From Serratia fonticola (GTDB lineage: Bacteria > Pseudomonadota > Gammaproteobacteria > Enterobacterales > Enterobacteriaceae), in assembly GCF_001006005.1 (NCBI RefSeq), contig NZ_CP011254.1:3286001-3350000 (forward strand): a stretch of 64,000 nt of DNA. The letters are read 5' to 3'. Made by a program: the position numbers and the translations under genes. A model generated the notes under the pieces. It searched no databases. It worked only from the letters and a program-made list of their open reading frames with translations, and was not told the DNA's origin. Shown piece after piece: positions 6,857-60,928 of the stretch (the first letter of the stretch is position 1; every line of letters begins with the position of its first letter).

Positions 6857-9568
6857 TTACTGCTTGGGTTTAAAACGCAGTAATCGGTTGGCGTTGCTGA
6901 CCACGGTAATGGAGGAGAGAGCCATTGCCGCGCCAGCGACCACTGGGCTGAGCAGGGTGCCCGTCAGCGGGTACAGCACACCGGCGGCAATCGGAATGCC
7001 AAGTGCGTTGTAGATAAATGCCCCGAGCAGGTTCTGCTTCATATTACGCAGCGTCGCCTTCGACAAGGCCAGCGCGTCCGCCACGCCGTTCAGGCTGTGA
7101 CGCATCAGGGTGATCGCCGCAGTTTCGATGGCGATATCACTGCCGCCGCCCATGGCGATCCCGACATCGGCCTGAGCCAGAGCAGGGGCGTCATTGATGC
7201 CGTCACCGACCATCGCTACCCGGTGGCCCTGAGCCTGCAACTGCTTGATCGCTTCGGCCTTACCGTCGGGTAACACGCCAGCAATCACGCGGTCGATACC
7301 GGCCTCTTTGGCAATCGCGTTAGCGGTCACCGGGTTATCGCCCGTTAACATCACCAGTTGATAACCTTGCTGATGCAGGCGCTGTAGTGCGCTCACGCTG
7401 TCACTGCGTAACGGATCGCGGATGGCGATCAGAGCGGCAGGTTTGCCGTTGGCGGCCAACAGTACCGGCGTGATACCGCGTTCAGCCTGTTGCTGTATCT
7501 GATGTGTGAGCTCATCAGTCGCGATCTGATTCTCTTGCAACAGCTTGGCATTACCCAGCAACAGCTGTACGCCCTCGACCTCACCGCTGACTCCTGAGCC
7601 GCGCAACGTCCGGAATTGCTCTACCGTAGGCAGTGTCTGCCCTTTAGCCTGTTCGACGATGGCACGTGCCAGCGGGTGGTTAGCCCCTTGTTCCAGCGCG
7701 GCGGCCCAACGTAAGGCCTGCTGTTCATCCACCTGGTTAAAGGTGATGATTTCCACCACGCGCGGCTGGCCTTCCGTCAGCGTACCAGTTTTATCGAACA
7801 CCAGCGTATCGAGATTGCTGGCCTGCTGCAGAGCATCGGCGTCACGCACCAGCACGCCAAACTCCGCGGCCCGGCCAACGCCAGAGATAATTGACATCGG
7901 CGTGGCCAGCCCCAAAGCGCAAGGGCAGGCGATGATTAGCACCGTGGTGGCGATCACCAGGGTGTAGACCAACTGCGGTTGTGGGCCAAAGAAATACCAG
8001 ATGGCGGCGCTGAACAGGGCGATGGCGACCACGGTGGGCACAAATACCGCCGAGATGCGGTCTGCCAGCTTACCGATTTCCGGTTTGCTGCTTTGCGCCT
8101 GGCGCACCAGCTTGATAATACGTGCCAGCGTGGTTTGGGTGCCAATGGCGGCCGCGCGAAACAGCACGCTGCCGTCGTCTACCACCGTACCGGCATGCAC
8201 CGTATCGCCGACGCCTTTTTGCTGCGGCAACGCTTCGCCGGTCAGCATGGCTTCATCGATCCACACTTCGCCCTGCACGATTTCACCGTCAACCGGGATG
8301 CGATCGCCAGTCGTCAGGCGCAACGTCATGCCCAATTGCACGTCTGCCAGCGGGATACTTTGTTCACCCAGTTCTGTGACTAGCCTGGCGGTTGGCGGAG
8401 TGAGATCCAGTAGCCGTTCCAGCGCCTGGGAAGAACGCTGCCGCGCGCGCTGCTCCATGGCATGACCAAGGTTGATCAGGCCGATGATCATCGCACTGGC
8501 TTCGTAATACAGATGCCGTGCCTCCATCGGGAAGAAGTCTGGCCACAGGTTGACGCTGATGGAGTACAGCCAGGCGGCACCGGTCCCCAAGGCGACCAGC
8601 GTATCCATGGTGGCGCTGCCGTTCATCAACGATCGCCAGGCATTGCGGTAGAAGTGGCCACCGGCAAACACCATTACCGCCAGGGTAATGATGCCAACCA
8701 TCAGCCACGGTCGCTGGGTTTCTGGCGTCAGCGACATACTGCCGCCAAACACGCCCCAGGCCATCAACGGCACGCCCACTGCCAAGCCTAATGCGGCCTG
8801 CCAGCGAAAGCGTTTCATATTAGCCTGTGCGGTTTGCTGTTGGCGTTCACGGCGCTTGGTTTCGTCCTGGATCATCTCGGCGCCATAGCCAGCTTTTTCT
8901 ACCGCAGCGACCAACGCCTGTGGTGTGGCCTTACCGGTGATCAGTGCGCTGCGCTCCGCCAGGTTTACCCGCGCCAACTCAACGCCCGGGACGTTCTGTA
9001 ACGCCGTCTGGACTTTATTGACACAGCTGGCGCAGGTCATGCCGTTGAGCAACAGCTGGACGCTATCGTCAGTCTCGCTTGCCGGAAGTGAAGAGGGGGC
9101 CGCTGCCTGGGGTTCCGGCAAGGTTGGGGCAGATTCAGTCAGCGGCTCAGTTTTTGGGTGGCTATTGGCTCCCGCCTGGTTGGCGTGATAGCCCGCATCT
9201 TCGACCGCAGCAATGAGCTGCTCTGGTGTGGCATCGCCATAGACTTTGGCTCCCTCGAGGGTAACGTCGGCGGCGATCACGCCCGGCACAGCTTCCAGTG
9301 CTTTACGGGTGCTGCCCACGCAATGCATGCAGGAGAGGCCGGAAAGTTGTAACTCGGTGTCTGCCTGATGGGCGATTTCTGCCTGGTAGCCAGCGGCAAC
9401 GACGCTGTCAATCAGCTCGGCAGCCGGGGCTGCACCGGTGATTTTAGCGTAGTGAACGTTGACGTTGGCCTGCTCGACATCTGCGCGACTTTCCAAGGCT
9501 TTTTTCACCTTTTGCGCGCAGTTCATGCAGGAGAGTCCCTGCAACGCCAGCACGGTAGTTTGTGACAT
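6857..9568 (-). CDS. copA: Cu(+)-exporting P1B-type ATPase with three N-terminal metal-binding domains
   Basis: Pumps cytoplasmic Cu(I) to the periplasm. Three heavy-metal-associated domains are visible, with CxxC pairs at C14/C17, C80/C83 and C179/C182; E. coli CopA has two, which explains the length of 903 against 834. Downstream come the transmembrane CPC motif ([11 protein letters not shown]), the phosphorylated Asp in DKTGTLTEG and the hinge [10 protein letters not shown]. The ATG follows GAGGAAAACCATC. A CueR-type promoter lies 60-90 bases upstream. The linker after the second metal domain contains a -1 slippery heptamer followed by a stop in the shifted frame (see separate entry), so a short two-domain chaperone form is also expected. 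Confidence 0.97.
9146..9160 (-). promoter_or_regulatory. Probable -1 ribosomal frameshift site in copA giving a CopA(Z)-like chaperone
   Basis: Reading the copA strand, the codons are CAC CCA AAA ACT GAG. C CCA AAA (9152-9158) fits the X-XXY-YYZ slippery pattern. After a -1 slip the next codons are AAC then TGA, so translation would stop as ...SHPKN at 140 residues, just after the second metal-binding domain. In E. coli the same place (SHPK) carries the established copA frameshift that yields the 70-residue CopA(Z) copper chaperone. Homology of the linker and the immediate stop support conservation. I did not identify a downstream pseudoknot with confidence. Confidence 0.75.
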
Positions 9569-9627
9569 GATGGTTTTCCTCGCAAAATAATGGCGGTTGA
9601 CCGCCTAGGTTCTTTTTATTGAGAATG

Positions 9628-9658
9628 ATCTTAAACCTTCCAGCAAGGGTAAGGTCAA
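9628..9658 (-). promoter_or_regulatory. CueR-dependent copA promoter
   Basis: On the copA strand the -35 TTGACC (9653-9658) and -10 TAAGAT (9628-9633) are separated by 19 bp. This over-long spacer is typical of MerR-family activated promoters. The spacer is filled by the dyad ACCTTACCC...GGAAGGT at 9635-9655, which closely resembles the known E. coli CueR box at copA. Confidence 0.9.
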
Positions 9659-9758
9659 TAGAATATTACATTGATAGAAAAGGATTTTTATTAACGCGGT
9701 CCACAACGCAGCCACGCTTCGACATAAGGCCCGAATTTTGCGGGGTTTTCTTTGGCTA

Positions 9759-9803: not shown

Positions 9804-10367
9804 TTACTTCATGTTGTCCGCTGACCACATCCCCGTGATTGGTCGGGCAAACAGCGCCAGCACAGCGATAAGGCTCACTTCAATGGAGATTGACCAGCAA
9901 ATGTGACCGATCATTTCACTCCAGAATTCATACCCATTCAGGTTCCAGAGCCAGCCAGTTTCACCTGAGAGATAGGCCGGATGCCTGAATCCTAGCGCCG
10001 GGATAAGGAAACCGTGCATGACCAGCGTGATCACAATACCGTAAGCCGCACCATACCAGAGCCTGATTTTGGGCGTATAAGCCGAAACCAGAACGTAAAG
10101 GCCCGCAAAGATGAAGCTGAACATCCAGTGATAAAGCATCACTGCTCCGGGGATCGTTACGCTCTGATAAACATAATCCATAGAATGGGAGTTAATTCCC
10201 AGCCAGCCAAGCCAGGCATCAATGTTAAGGGCGGGCGGCGATGCCTCACCGACGATGCGCGGCGGCATATTGGCCTCAGAGCCTGACTTTACCAGCGAGC
10301 TGATCGCACCACCGATGAAAGTTGCCCACAAAAAAATACGTAAATTAACTTTACTACAAATGTTCAT
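9804..10367 (-). CDS. YagU-like (DUF1440) inner membrane protein
   Basis: 187 residues, related to E. coli YagU (204 residues), an inner membrane protein linked to acid resistance. Shared features are the MNI start, a first membrane segment near 10-25, PKIRLWYGAAYGIVITLVMHG in the third segment, and the C-terminal SEMIGHICWSISIEV helix. Roughly four membrane helices can be seen. The gene sits between copA and cueR, which are usually divergent neighbours. It is flanked by two copies of the CueR operator and ends in its own terminator, so it looks like an insertion. A GGAG lies very close to the start. A copper role is not supported by the sequence. Confidence 0.8.
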   Translation of the reverse strand: MNICSKVNLRIFLWATFIGGAISSLVKSGSEANMPPRIVGEASPPALNIDAWLGWLGINSHSMDYVYQSVTIPGAVMLYHWMFSFIFAGLYVLVSAYTPKIRLWYGAAYGIVITLVMHGFLIPALGFRHPAYLSGETGWLWNLNGYEFWSEMIGHICWSISIEVSLIAVLALFARPITGMWSADNMK

Positions 10368-10730: not shown

Positions 10731-10754
10731 ACCTTCCAGCAAAGGTAAGGTCAA
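10731..10754. promoter_or_regulatory. Second CueR-type operator, upstream of cueR
   Basis: This 24-bp stretch matches the copA operator at 9635-9658 with one difference (A for G at the 13th position) and has the same orientation. It ends 11 bp before the cueR start codon. Its leftward promoter is weak: 19 bp from TTGACC the -10 position reads CATGTA. It could allow CueR autoregulation or be a duplicated remnant of the original copA-cueR spacer. Confidence 0.75.
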
Positions 10755-10764
10755 GGGGGATAAA

Positions 10765-11166
10765 GTGAATATCAGCGACGTTGCCAAAAAAACCGGTTTG
10801 ACCAGCAAAGCCATCCGTTTTTATGAAGAGAAAGGATTGGTGACCACCCCGATCCGTACGGACAACGGCTACCGCAGCTACAGCGCCAGGCATATTGAAG
10901 AACTGACGTTATTGCGTCAGGCTCGTCAGGTGGGCTTCAATCTTGACGAATGCCGTGAACTGGTCGCGTTGTTCAACGATCCGGCGCGGCACAGTGCCGA
11001 TGTCAAAGCCCGCACGCTGCAGAAAGTTGCCGATATCGAAAAGCACATCAGCGAACTGGGGGAAATGCGCCAACGCCTGCTGGCGCTGGCGGATCAATGC
11101 CCTGGCGATGAAGGAGCAGACTGCCCGATCATTAATAATCTGGCAGGCTGCTGCCACAAAGGCTAG
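10765..11166 (+). CDS. cueR: CueR, Cu(+)-sensing MerR-family activator
   Basis: Activates copA and cueO-type genes by distorting 19-bp-spaced promoters when bound to Cu(I). The N-terminal winged HTH begins [26 protein letters not shown] dimerisation helix follows, and the metal loop has C112 and C120, the same positions as E. coli CueR, plus a CC pair near the end. 133 residues. The start is GTG, preceded by AAGGGGGATAAA. The last four bases overlap the tail of the convergent ybbJ. Confidence 0.97.
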
Positions 11167-57676: not shown

Positions 57677-60600
57677 ATGAAAGTACAGGAAGCCAAATTT
57701 TCATCTAAAGAATTTCTAAAGCGTCGTCGCCCTGAAAAATTTTCTGATTCAACGATTCGAGAGACAGGGTCTTTAGATAGAGTTGTACTTGAGCATTTTC
57801 TTTCTACTCTAAATACAAGAAATCAAGAATTACAATTCGAAGATTTTGCTAAAAGAATATGTGAGAAAATAATTTGCCCTAATCTCCTTGAACAGACAGG
57901 TCCTGTAGCTGGGGGGGATGGTAAAACTGACACACAAACATTCCCTGTTTCGGAACAAAATAAGCTTCTTTGGTTAGAAGGTGTTAATGAAACATCAAAT
58001 AAAGAACGCTGGGCCTTTGCGGTAAGTACACGCAAAGACTGGAAGAAAAAATGTCATGAAGATGTGCTTAAAATAAAAGAAACAGCTCGTGGTTATAAAA
58101 AAATATTTTGCGTAACAAATCAATCGGCTAAGTCAAATATTCGTTCAGAGGTTGAAGATACCTTAAAAGCACAAACAGGAATAGATGTCCGTATATTAGA
58201 TATTAATTGGATACTAGATCAAATCTACAAAAATCATTTCGAGCAATTGGTCATTGATACATTATCGGTTCCAACACAATATAATAGAGAGGTTATTTTT
58301 GGAGAAAATGATTATAAGAAGCAAAAAAAATATGAAGAACTAACCGAGTATATTAGAGGGAAAATAAACCCTGCTGGAATTTCATATGAGCAAGTGGACT
58401 TTTTCTTAGAAGTTGCAGAGTTAAGCGCTGAGCTTGAAAAAGCGATAATTGAAACACAAGGTCTATTTGAAAGAGCTATAAAAATCTCAAAAAAATTTGG
58501 TACAAACCAACAATTGCTGGATGCGTATTATCAATACGCTTGGAAGGCCCATTTTTGGATGGAAGATTTTAACCTTTTCGAAGAAAATCTTCAATTAGCG
58601 TATGAATGTATAGCATCATCAACTAACTCCTCAAAATGGGAGAAAGTTTTAAACTTAGTAACAGTCCATAAAAGTTATATTAGACTTAACAACGCAACAT
58701 CTACAATCGACATTGAGAATATCGAACGTAATATGCTCGCTAAACTAGATGAGATAGCTGACGATGAATCTCGTCCCAGTAATGCACTTACAGCGAGAAC
58801 TCACAAAGCCATTTATAAAATGACAACGTTTTCAGATGTAGAAGATGCTTCGGTTGTATTTGAAGAGTTACATGAAATTTTTAAAAGTAGTGGAAATTTA
58901 ATAGGCTATCCTTTTGAGAAAAACTTCCAACTTTTGAACGAACTAGATGACATTTTTTTCGAGGTTGATGCATATGAGAATTTATTAGACTATATGACTG
59001 AGCAATCCACTCTTAGAGGCGGTGAAGTTAAAGGGGCATTATTAAATCTACGAAGAGGCATAAAGAGAATTCAAAATGGTCACCCTTATCAGGCAATCAA
59101 GTATTTAGGAAAAACTTTTATTCCACTCTATAAAGAGGAATCACGAGATAAATTTATATTAGCATTAAAAGCAATAGCTTATGCTTACGAATCCATTGGG
59201 TTGCTATGGAGTTCACGTTCATGCTTGCTTCTATCCGCTTCTTTGATTACAGATAACTACTGGAAGTATGATGAGATATCATTAAAGCAGGTTGAGATTT
59301 ATTATAGTTTATGCCTAACGGAAATAAAAATAGGAAAATTAGCACATGCCATTTTATGGTATGAATTGTTTTTAATAATTAACCAGAATATCAGTGATAG
59401 CTCGTTCGGTGATAAAGAAAATCAGCAAATTGATTTTTACATAAGCCAACTTATTTTGAACACTGATCTAAAGGAAATAAATCTACAGAGTAATATTCCT
59501 GATGAACTGGATAGATTAGGACTTTTCGTATCATCGGGATGTCTTAAATATGCTTTAGGTTATATTGAAGATTTTGAGCGTGAGTACGATGTTATTGCAG
59601 ATTATGATAATAATGATTTTTTGCAAAAAATACGTGACTTTGATGCAGGATTTAATAGTCAAGGCATAAAAGATAACCATGGCAAACGAGGAGTATATAC
59701 ATCTTTTATTTTTGGATGCACCATAGAAATCAACTTTCCGAATCGGTCACCATTTATAGAGTTTTCAACTAATGTCTTATCACTTTTAGAGAGTGCTTTT
59801 GCAACTTGTGCGATTGATAACATCCATCTAAAAGAAGCATTTTTAATTATTGAAGTAATAGCAGATGACGAAGATGACTTATCCTTATCACATGAAATAA
59901 ATAGCAATAGTGGAAAACTAAATCTTACAATAAATTGTTCTGGTTTTGATGCAAGTGATTTTATAATTGATGCTCAACGAAAAATCACCAATGAATTCAA
60001 GAAAATAGTATTTGATCTTGTCCCTGAATTATTTTTTATAAAAAATACAGAATACATTGAAAAAATGATATTCGAAGATGCTGCATTCGACAGAGCAATT
60101 AGTTTCGGTGCCTGTATCAAAGCTATTGAAAATGTTCTTGGAAATGATATTGATCAACAAATTAAGAAAATTCATTCCACAAGTGCTGAAAAGAAAACTT
60201 ACCCTCTTCTAAGAGATAAATCCTGGGATAGTGAATTTCCGAAAGTGTTGGAGATCGAGGATATAAATGATCCAACATTTGGAAAAGGAAGAATGCCTGA
60301 AGAGGAACTTAATTCCGAAAATATAACACATAAAGATTATTCCATACAAAGTCTAATCAAACCTCGTCTGTGGGATAGGACACGCTGGAAAGGGGTGGGC
60401 TTCGTTCAATTCAAAGCATGTCACCCAGGATTATATCTATTATTTAAAGACTCCGGTGTGGGTGAAGATATTTTTAAAGATCTTATATCATCTGTAGGCT
60501 TATCAGATAATAAATCCAGATTACGTGTTTGTATCGTCAAAGGTATCTCAGTTAAAAAACCAGCTCATTATAGAGTACTGATATCTGAGAATATGAAGAA

Positions 60601-60928
60601 TGCTCCAATGACTAAAAGAATGACGATGATCAGCCGAATTAACACGATGACTCCCGATAACAATGTCAACCTTGATAGATTCCTTGCTGCTTATCATTCC
60701 TGCGGAAAATTTTATCTCGGATGTGATGCAATGTTAAAGAATATTACTACTGATTCTCCACGAAAAGACAGTCTAGGAATAGAAATGAGTACGTTAGATG
60801 TTAGGTGGGCATGGGAAATCGGCTTGAATGATGTTGATTGTATTGGTATCAATTTAGATGACGATGATCCATATATTCCAGATGATGTGGCTGATGCTCC
60901 ATTATTAGAGTTGATAAATGCCAAATAG
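57677..60928 (+). CDS. Large nuclease-like protein with helical repeats, candidate defence protein
   Basis: 1083 residues, strongly AT-rich. Residues 50-200 resemble a restriction-endonuclease-like N-terminal domain common in large defence-island proteins: FEDFAKRICEKI (54-65), TGPVAGGDGKTDTQT (74-88, D81 and D85), then WAFAVSTRKDWKKK in place of the usual (E/D)xK strand, and a final VRILDINWILDQI. Residues about 230-620 are helical and TPR-like. The C-terminal 450 residues match no family I know. No Walker motif is visible, so it may act alone or sense through the repeats. ATGGAGCATAACAATC precedes the ATG. Intact, probably single-gene transcription unit. Confidence 0.6.
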   Translation: MKVQEAKFSSKEFLKRRRPEKFSDSTIRETGSLDRVVLEHFLSTLNTRNQELQFEDFAKRICEKIICPNLLEQTGPVAGGDGKTDTQTFPVSEQNKLLWLEGVNETSNKERWAFAVSTRKDWKKKCHEDVLKIKETARGYKKIFCVTNQSAKSNIRSEVEDTLKAQTGIDVRILDINWILDQIYKNHFEQLVIDTLSVPTQYNREVIFGENDYKKQKKYEELTEYIRGKINPAGISYEQVDFFLEVAELSAELEKAIIETQGLFERAIKISKKFGTNQQLLDAYYQYAWKAHFWMEDFNLFEENLQLAYECIASSTNSSKWEKVLNLVTVHKSYIRLNNATSTIDIENIERNMLAKLDEIADDESRPSNALTARTHKAIYKMTTFSDVEDASVVFEELHEIFKSSGNLIGYPFEKNFQLLNELDDIFFEVDAYENLLDYMTEQSTLRGGEVKGALLNLRRGIKRIQNGHPYQAIKYLGKTFIPLYKEESRDKFILALKAIAYAYESIGLLWSSRSCLLLSASLITDNYWKYDEISLKQVEIYYSLCLTEIKIGKLAHAILWYELFLIINQNISDSSFGDKENQQIDFYISQLILNTDLKEINLQSNIPDELDRLGLFVSSGCLKYALGYIEDFEREYDVIADYDNNDFLQKIRDFDAGFNSQGIKDNHGKRGVYTSFIFGCTIEINFPNRSPFIEFSTNVLSLLESAFATCAIDNIHLKEAFLIIEVIADDEDDLSLSHEINSNSGKLNLTINCSGFDASDFIIDAQRKITNEFKKIVFDLVPELFFIKNTEYIEKMIFEDAAFDRAISFGACIKAIENVLGNDIDQQIKKIHSTSAEKKTYPLLRDKSWDSEFPKVLEIEDINDPTFGKGRMPEEELNSENITHKDYSIQSLIKPRLWDRTRWKGVGFVQFKACHPGLYLLFKDSGVGEDIFKDLISSVGLSDNKSRLRVCIVKGISVKKPAHYRVLISENMKNAPMTKRMTMISRINTMTPDNNVNLDRFLAAYHSCGKFYLGCDAMLKNITTDSPRKDSLGIEMSTLDVRWAWEIGLNDVDCIGINLDDDDPYIPDDVADAPLLELINAK

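Follow-up and report, generated by a model that had tools for sequence, protein, structure and literature searches.

A conserved -1 frameshift site in copA of Serratia fonticola predicted to give a two-domain copper chaperone beside the Cu(I) pump

A programmed -1 frameshift in Escherichia coli copA, giving the protein CopA(Z), was reportedly described in 2017 by Meydan and by Drees. Published work reports a 70-aa product made via efficient -1 frameshifting (PMC5009743), names the slip sequence, a pseudoknot and the nascent chain as stimulators (PMC7558416), and treats the frameshift to a 70-aa chaperone as established (PMC9548414, PMC12589874); PMC9548414 also explains how dual reporters built as fusions can be misleading. 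Haemophilus influenzae carries tandem repeated copZ genes (PMC10187127).

Here we analysed a window, the whole stretch of 64,000 nt of Serratia fonticola DNA (NZ_CP011254.1, positions 3,286,001 to 3,350,000), and in particular its copA gene. The 903-aa protein scores 1676.9 bits against the NCBIfam equivalog NF007952 CopA (cut-off 1316), and Pfam finds in it three HMA domains, E1-E2_ATPase and Hydrolase. It is linked to cueR, whose product scores 248.4 bits against PRK10227 (cut-off 244). A sequence-only reading of the window had claimed that C CCA AAA stands in frame and is followed, after a -1 slip, by AAC TGA, and that CopA has three domains with the site after the second, so that a 140-residue tandem product was predicted. 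Direct reading of the minus strand bears this out: the linker codons are AGC CAC CCA AAA ACT GAG CCG CTG in the zero frame, with CCCAAAA in frame at 9158-9152 and CCC AAA AAC TGA in the -1 reading (stop at 9149-9147). Counted from the ATG at 9568-9566, the slipped product would have 140 residues, and Pfam places two HMA matches within zero-frame residues 1-140 and three in the whole protein. The features of the locus are as follows.

6857..9568, minus strand: copA, encoding a 903-aa P1B-type copper-exporting ATPase whose N-terminal part holds three HMA metal-binding domains (ORF; Pfam)
9147..9568, minus strand: predicted 140-aa frameshift product with two HMA domains, -1 stop counted in (coordinates; Pfam)
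9371..9562, minus strand: metal-binding domain 1 (CMNC), approximate limits (CxxC positions; Pfam)
9176..9361, minus strand: metal-binding domain 2 (CMHC), directly 5' of the slip site, approximate limits (CxxC positions; Pfam; best HMA stretch, residues 73-128 of the 140-aa product)
8873..9061, minus strand: metal-binding domain 3 (CASC), in the full-length pump only, approximate limits (best HMA stretch, residues 174-228)
9152..9158, minus strand: slippery heptamer C CCA AAA (sequence read; conservation in the family)
9147..9149, minus strand: -1 frame stop TGA, one codon past the heptamer (sequence read)
9140..9146, minus strand: predicted pseudoknot stem 1, 5' arm GCCGCUG, 5 nt past the heptamer (stem prediction; covariation)
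9113..9122, minus strand: predicted pseudoknot stem 2, 5' arm CUUGCCGGAA (stem prediction; covariation)
9099..9105, minus strand: predicted pseudoknot stem 1, 3' arm CAGCGGC (stem prediction)
9078..9087, minus strand: predicted pseudoknot stem 2, 3' arm UUCCGGCAAG (stem prediction)
9635..9658, no strand assigned: copA-side copy of a 24-nt repeat (repeat comparison)
10765..11166, plus strand: cueR, copper-responsive MerR-type regulator, divergent from copA (NCBIfam PRK10227 and TIGR02044, above cut-off)

The 24-nt repeat, which we take to resemble a CueR operator, occurs at 9635-9658 and 10731-10754 in copies that are 96% identical and that flank a block between copA and cueR with a DUF1440 ORF (9804-10367, minus strand). 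Among the loci compared, the whole repeat and DUF1440 block was found only in the window genome's own loci. Outside the window, at G000:C1:4745481-4749094, lies a second Cu-type ATPase, an 874-aa open frame with two HMA domains, adjoined by a 74-aa HMA ORF. Because G000 has this additional small ORF, the 140-aa form need not be the sole CopZ there.

We propose that ribosomes are programmed to slip by -1 at C CCA AAA, aided by an H-type pseudoknot further downstream, and that copA would in this way give two products. Zero-frame reading would yield the full 903-aa Cu(I) pump, and a slip followed by termination one codon later would yield a 140-aa soluble protein with two tandem HMA domains, most likely a two-site copper chaperone or buffer and the counterpart of the one-domain CopA(Z) of E. 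coli. Window copA combines CCCAAAR before the last HMA domain, a -1 stop directly after it and a predicted pseudoknot. Judged from sequence comparison, the slip site is almost certainly genuine, and it is very probable that programmed -1 frameshifting makes both the pump and a two-domain chaperone from this gene. We infer that slippage and chaperone function would occur in the Serratia fonticola organism of the window.

By itself the window pattern is uncommon, yet not extraordinary. Across the 18319 codons of the 50 kept window ORFs, CCCAAAR occurs in frame only once, at the copA site; an early -1 stop is present at 5 of the 37 in-frame X XXY YYZ sites (Y = A/T), copA counted, so that the window pattern alone is weak evidence, and it is conservation that raises it above chance. 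Elsewhere in the window, an in-frame A AAA AAA closely followed by a -1 stop lies in a 1083-aa ORF (57677-60928) that matched neither Pfam nor NCBIfam at E 0.001.

To follow the site across the family we examined 149 fused orthologues of copA drawn from 81 genus codes, each from a different genome, plus eight further genes. The loci were chosen by hand, about one to three per genus code; matches were present in 252 of the 392 family genomes. Outside the 157 stand L268-L269, the G373 paralogue (L267) and paralogues below 45% identity, along with the chaperone-only loci and the four inverted genes. In the 149-gene set, sites were sought up to 90 codons before the last CxxC. The heptamer CCCAAA[AG] with a -1 stop after one codon was found in 145 of 149 and in 7 of the 8 added genes, i.e., in 152 of 157 fused genes. 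The sequence-only reading had named loss of the heptamer or stop in close relatives as evidence against itself; within the window genus, all six genomes with a fused copA (L001-L006) keep both, and a seventh, G003, has a free-standing chaperone only. Among the exceptions in the 149, G032 (a decaying gene) and G133 (four domains, site lost) lack the site, G153 has AAAAAAA with the stop kept, and G138 keeps the heptamer with the early -1 stop absent; one added gene, that of G332, is without the site. The G153 gene (L195) is a three-domain copA in which AAAAAAA replaces CCCAAAA and which keeps a strong pseudoknot candidate together with its -1 stop.

Codon choice at the linker is nearly invariant. 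The PK..PL peptide, sought without a codon criterion, occurs in 142 of the 149 genes, and all 142 have C as the base preceding Pro and CCA for Pro itself, against a background of 14% CCA in these genes; on this codon test a chance heptamer was rejected. The next codon past Lys has T as its third base in 141 of 142, compared with 8-13% for corresponding codons elsewhere; it is this T-ending codon that creates the TGA or TAA of the -1 frame. Fifteen loci were read outside the family: CCCAAAG plus stop was present in two of f9 (L159, L160) and AAAAAAG in one of f11 (L161). The linker site was absent from all 12 three-domain genes read in genus code g174 (f21; L162-L173), and a three-domain architecture was accordingly dismissed as the cause of the site.

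The sequence-only reading had also suggested a search for a downstream pseudoknot. An H-type pseudoknot is predicted 5 nt past the window heptamer, with stems of 7 and 10 bp that are homologous to the E. coli stems (L259). Our finder is a home-made stem-stacking score that nearly always yields some candidate (in f21 genes it gives -21 to -31 with other stems, best of many positions), so we relied on fixed register and covariation rather than on z-scores. Two fixed pairing registers cover 88 and 31 sequences (119 of 154), and the best stem 1 starts 3-6 nt past the heptamer in 153 of 154. Covariation was scored in sets drawn from these two main registers only (77 and 29 sequences after duplicate removal; 27 of the 29 were used, the omitted pair being E. 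coli-type rows that carry a 3-nt insertion), and since the sets were chosen by structure they lean towards it. Standard pairs fill 86.1% of cells in the ungapped alignment of 77 distinct sequences and 86.6% in that of 27, and pairing falls to 17-54% when the partner is slid by 1-3 columns. Two-sided changes occur at eight pairs in each alignment, a number reached by 0/500 and 1/500 shuffles; the double-changed cells number 35 and 21, and neither these counts nor the covariation score was reached by any of 500 shuffles in either alignment. Further pair types were no more numerous than in shuffles, 395/500 and 242/500 of which reach the count.

In the window, the pseudoknot score was matched at 0 of 771 other codon positions and by 0 of 200 synonymous recodings. 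The score is unexceptional in some species, being equalled at 83/764 positions in L031, 37/699 in L047 and 36/852 in L105, and by 19/200 and 12/200 synonymous recodings in L105 and L040, respectively. With dinucleotide shuffles, z was -2 or lower in 56 of 154 sequences, and none of 60 shuffles was as good in 101 of 154. A plain minimum-energy fold of the window stretch under a pseudoknot-free model is of ordinary stability (z -0.62), and an Rfam scan of window 8900-9700 gave one sub-threshold match only. In L110, where the heptamer is lost, the homologous stems were not found and the best linker candidate is a different one (-26.9).

Domain number varies widely around this site. Two domains were scored in 89 of the 149 genes, three in 49, four in 9 and one in two, the last being the decayed gene of G032 and that of G284, which has a frame break separating domain 1 from domain 2 (L097, 1640-2500: a three-domain copA broken away from the slip site, with a one-domain ORF left upstream). 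In 144 of 145 genes the heptamer follows the motif of the penultimate domain at a distance of 57-62 codons, the odd one being the frame-broken G284. Since the site follows the penultimate domain, products of one, two or three domains are predicted, and their lengths of 70-75, 134-145 (median 140) and 205-211 aa track the domain number; slipping is expected to leave two domains in window copA and in 47 of the 49 genes that have three. On an ATPase-body tree (91 rows, quick method) domain number changed at least 13 times. The heptamer-stop-pseudoknot cassette would thus stay fixed while upstream domains come and go, serving as the end-point for one- to three-domain chaperones. The earlier claim of a domain gained at the N-terminus is broadly right; the placing of that domain is less certain. 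In a domain tree made from short sequences, with untested branches, E. coli-type genes have a single domain that sits closer to the first domain of three-domain genes, which weakly suggests that the extra domain is the second one, adjoining the slip site, and not one added at the extreme N-terminus. Some later two-domain genes retain a domain-2-like domain in the same tree.

At nine loci the ATPase is absent and a free-standing one-domain gene is kept (G003, of the window genus, and G022, G167, G175, G030, G174, G258, G324 and G380). These genes encode 65-71 aa, with traB as a neighbour in 9/9 and cueR alongside in 8 of the 9 stretches read (not seen in that of G167). The G324 protein is identical to P0037, named [Hafnia psychrotolerans]. 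Their dN/dS is 0.04-0.12 in seven pairs, all within g17 and g25; it was computed for 7 of 36 free-standing pairs, two of them with dS near or above 2, and G003 and G175 are without a congener copy. As the congeners of G003 and G175 retain the full gene, the pump was lost at least twice, barring gene transfer. A second Cu ATPase, 69-91% identical to that of G000, is present in eight of the nine chaperone-only genomes, the exception being G380 (a 3.6 Mb assembly); among four g26 genomes with a whole copA, it was found in G381 only. G000 and G004 have both pumps, so a second pump does not force loss of copA. From their synteny and sequence the free-standing genes look like copA remnants and not imported copZ, and we infer that the short product may be worth retaining without a linked pump.

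A further departure was observed in two Sodalis genomes and in the lineage of 'Serratia sp. M24T3', where the frames are inverted. In G010, G112, G120 and G624 the zero frame stops three codons past the heptamer (PKPRR, PKLRR, PKLSR and PKLSR, respectively), and the ATPase body is open in the -1 frame only, for 779-795 codons from the slip itself. The heptamer is in phase at these loci, and pseudoknot scores are -38.1 to -39.9, with z of -1.2 in G010 and -2.2 to -3.1 in G112, G120 and G624. We take G010 to be S. praecaptivus and G032 to be S. pierantonius. A pattern scan of genome contigs for inverted junctions returned 17 stretches, two of which were verified as copA: NZ_FRDB01000015.1 'Candidatus Sodalis sp. 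SoCistrobi' (L251) and NZ_AJHJ01000032.1 'Serratia sp. M24T3' (L258). The L258 junction is the same as that of G624, and the two may be one genome. The other 15 stretches carry other organism titles, and the scan missed S. praecaptivus though G010 carries the pattern. The two inverted pairs sit in two places on the tree (SH-aLRT 100 and 97), and the genus code of G120 (g115) also contains genomes with a normal gene, namely G224, G295, G354 and G625. In the ATPase part, dN/dS is 0.147 for G010/G112, 0.072 for G120/G624 and 0.05-0.07 for G120 versus three normal congeners. No Shine-Dalgarno-like motif precedes the -1-frame starts in the first 170 nt of G010, G112 and G120. Protein clusters P0022-P0024 and P0026 (Sodalis-like) and P0029-P0033 (G120-like), seen as proteins only, suggest more inverted genes; P0031-P0033 end directly at PK. 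These data make it probable that in Sodalis and in the 'Serratia sp. M24T3' lineage the chaperone is the default product and the pump is reached only via a -1 slip, the polarity having flipped at least twice. Since slippage in E. coli copA is reported to be efficient, a frame swap could be nearly neutral, leaving polarity able to flip, and by analogy it might alter the product ratio little. Two-domain proteins of 140 and 176 aa are also predicted in P0002, P0005 (named Yersinia kristensenii) and P0010; P0002 ends in PKLSR and P0010 in PKPSR, resembling inverted three-domain genes, and P0002 may be a homopolymer read error.

Several other explanations for these patterns were weighed. The linker might be conserved for protein reasons with the heptamer incidental, and the PK..PL peptide is itself conserved (142 of 149 genes); we regard this as highly improbable, given that synonymous positions are fixed (CCA 142/142 over the 14% background, third base of NCT 141/142), that the RNA stems covary and that 12 of 12 three-domain g174 (f21) genes have no such linker site. 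Even less credible is a short form arising from transcriptional slippage on the A-run, for although the window has AAAAA after CCC, 72 of 145 intact sites are CCCAAAG with three A's only, and on these forms we rejected it; the narrow spacing of stem 1 behind the heptamer suits ribosomal slippage. Somewhat more weight, though still little, is due to the suggestion that frameshifting serves to throttle pump synthesis, the short protein being a side product with no role itself. Any early -1 stop would reduce full-length output, yet the stop lands just past a complete domain in every site-bearing gene (57-62 codons, 144/145), nine ATPase-less loci retain the chaperone in the same synteny under low dN/dS (0.04-0.12 in the seven g17 and g25 pairs), and the chaperone is the default product at the inverted loci. 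Programmed frameshifting that supplies both a pump and a chaperone is the reading we favour, and the comparison thus supports the interpretation given in the sequence-only reading.

The inverted loci call for a separate judgement, as they could be pseudogenes or assembly errors. Sodalis genomes are often decaying, and the copA of G032, taken as another Sodalis, has decayed; sequencing reads commonly miscount A-runs by one base, of which P0002 (140 aa, ending in PKLSR) could be an instance, and the pseudoknot z of G010 is only -1.2. Against this, the inverted junction was seen in all four of G010, G112, G120 and G624, their ATPase bodies are open over 779-795 codons with dN/dS of 0.05-0.147, heptamer and pseudoknot are kept, further clusters (P0022-P0024, P0026, P0029-P0033) point the same way, and the starts read in the -1 frame have no Shine-Dalgarno-like motif within the 170 nt given above. 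We therefore think decay or misassembly rather unlikely, and functional inversion the better reading.

None of the titles and abstract openings surveyed announced multi-domain products, remnants that keep the chaperone alone or a copA frameshift of inverted polarity, though such cases may have been reported elsewhere. A literature search that included Sodalis found no paper. The observations would extend the one well-studied example, E. coli CopA(Z), to a comparative system in which one cassette is predicted to end one-, two- and three-domain chaperones, persists through at least 13 changes in domain number and through frame inversion in two tree places, and leaves a free chaperone gene where the pump is gone. 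Questions that become testable are how many copper sites a chaperone needs, whether the short product is under selection for a function of its own, and by what route the polarity of a frameshift changes in evolution. Inverted loci could be annotated as broken genes by gene callers. If the inverted reading is true, copA offers a natural series of a frameshift gene that has been lengthened, inverted and split.

In comparison with known systems, the window gene appears from its sequence to share every feature of the E. coli mechanism that was tested, namely a CCCAAAR heptamer in the corresponding linker of the same gene, a -1 stop one codon on and homologous pseudoknot stems (L259), and to differ in its two-domain product. 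E. coli copA has two domains and a 70-aa one-domain product, whereas the window gene has three and a predicted product of 140 aa; some relatives, again unlike E. coli, have four domains and a predicted product of about 206 aa. Because the window product would span two HMA domains, it is not CopA(Z) itself. The H. influenzae arrangement is similar in having more than one chaperone domain per pump, but there the copZ genes are separate, whereas in the window the domains would be in tandem on one polypeptide made by predicted frameshifting. The free-standing genes resemble stand-alone CopZ (e.g., NCBIfam NF047957) in being single HMA-domain genes of 65-71 aa, and differ from it in that the free CopZ of G003 scores 74 against a cut-off of 85. 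Insertion-sequence transposases use -1 frameshifting to make their long product, and the inverted loci are like them in needing a slip for the long enzyme; unlike those transposases, the same copA cassette is found in both polarities among relatives, even within g115.
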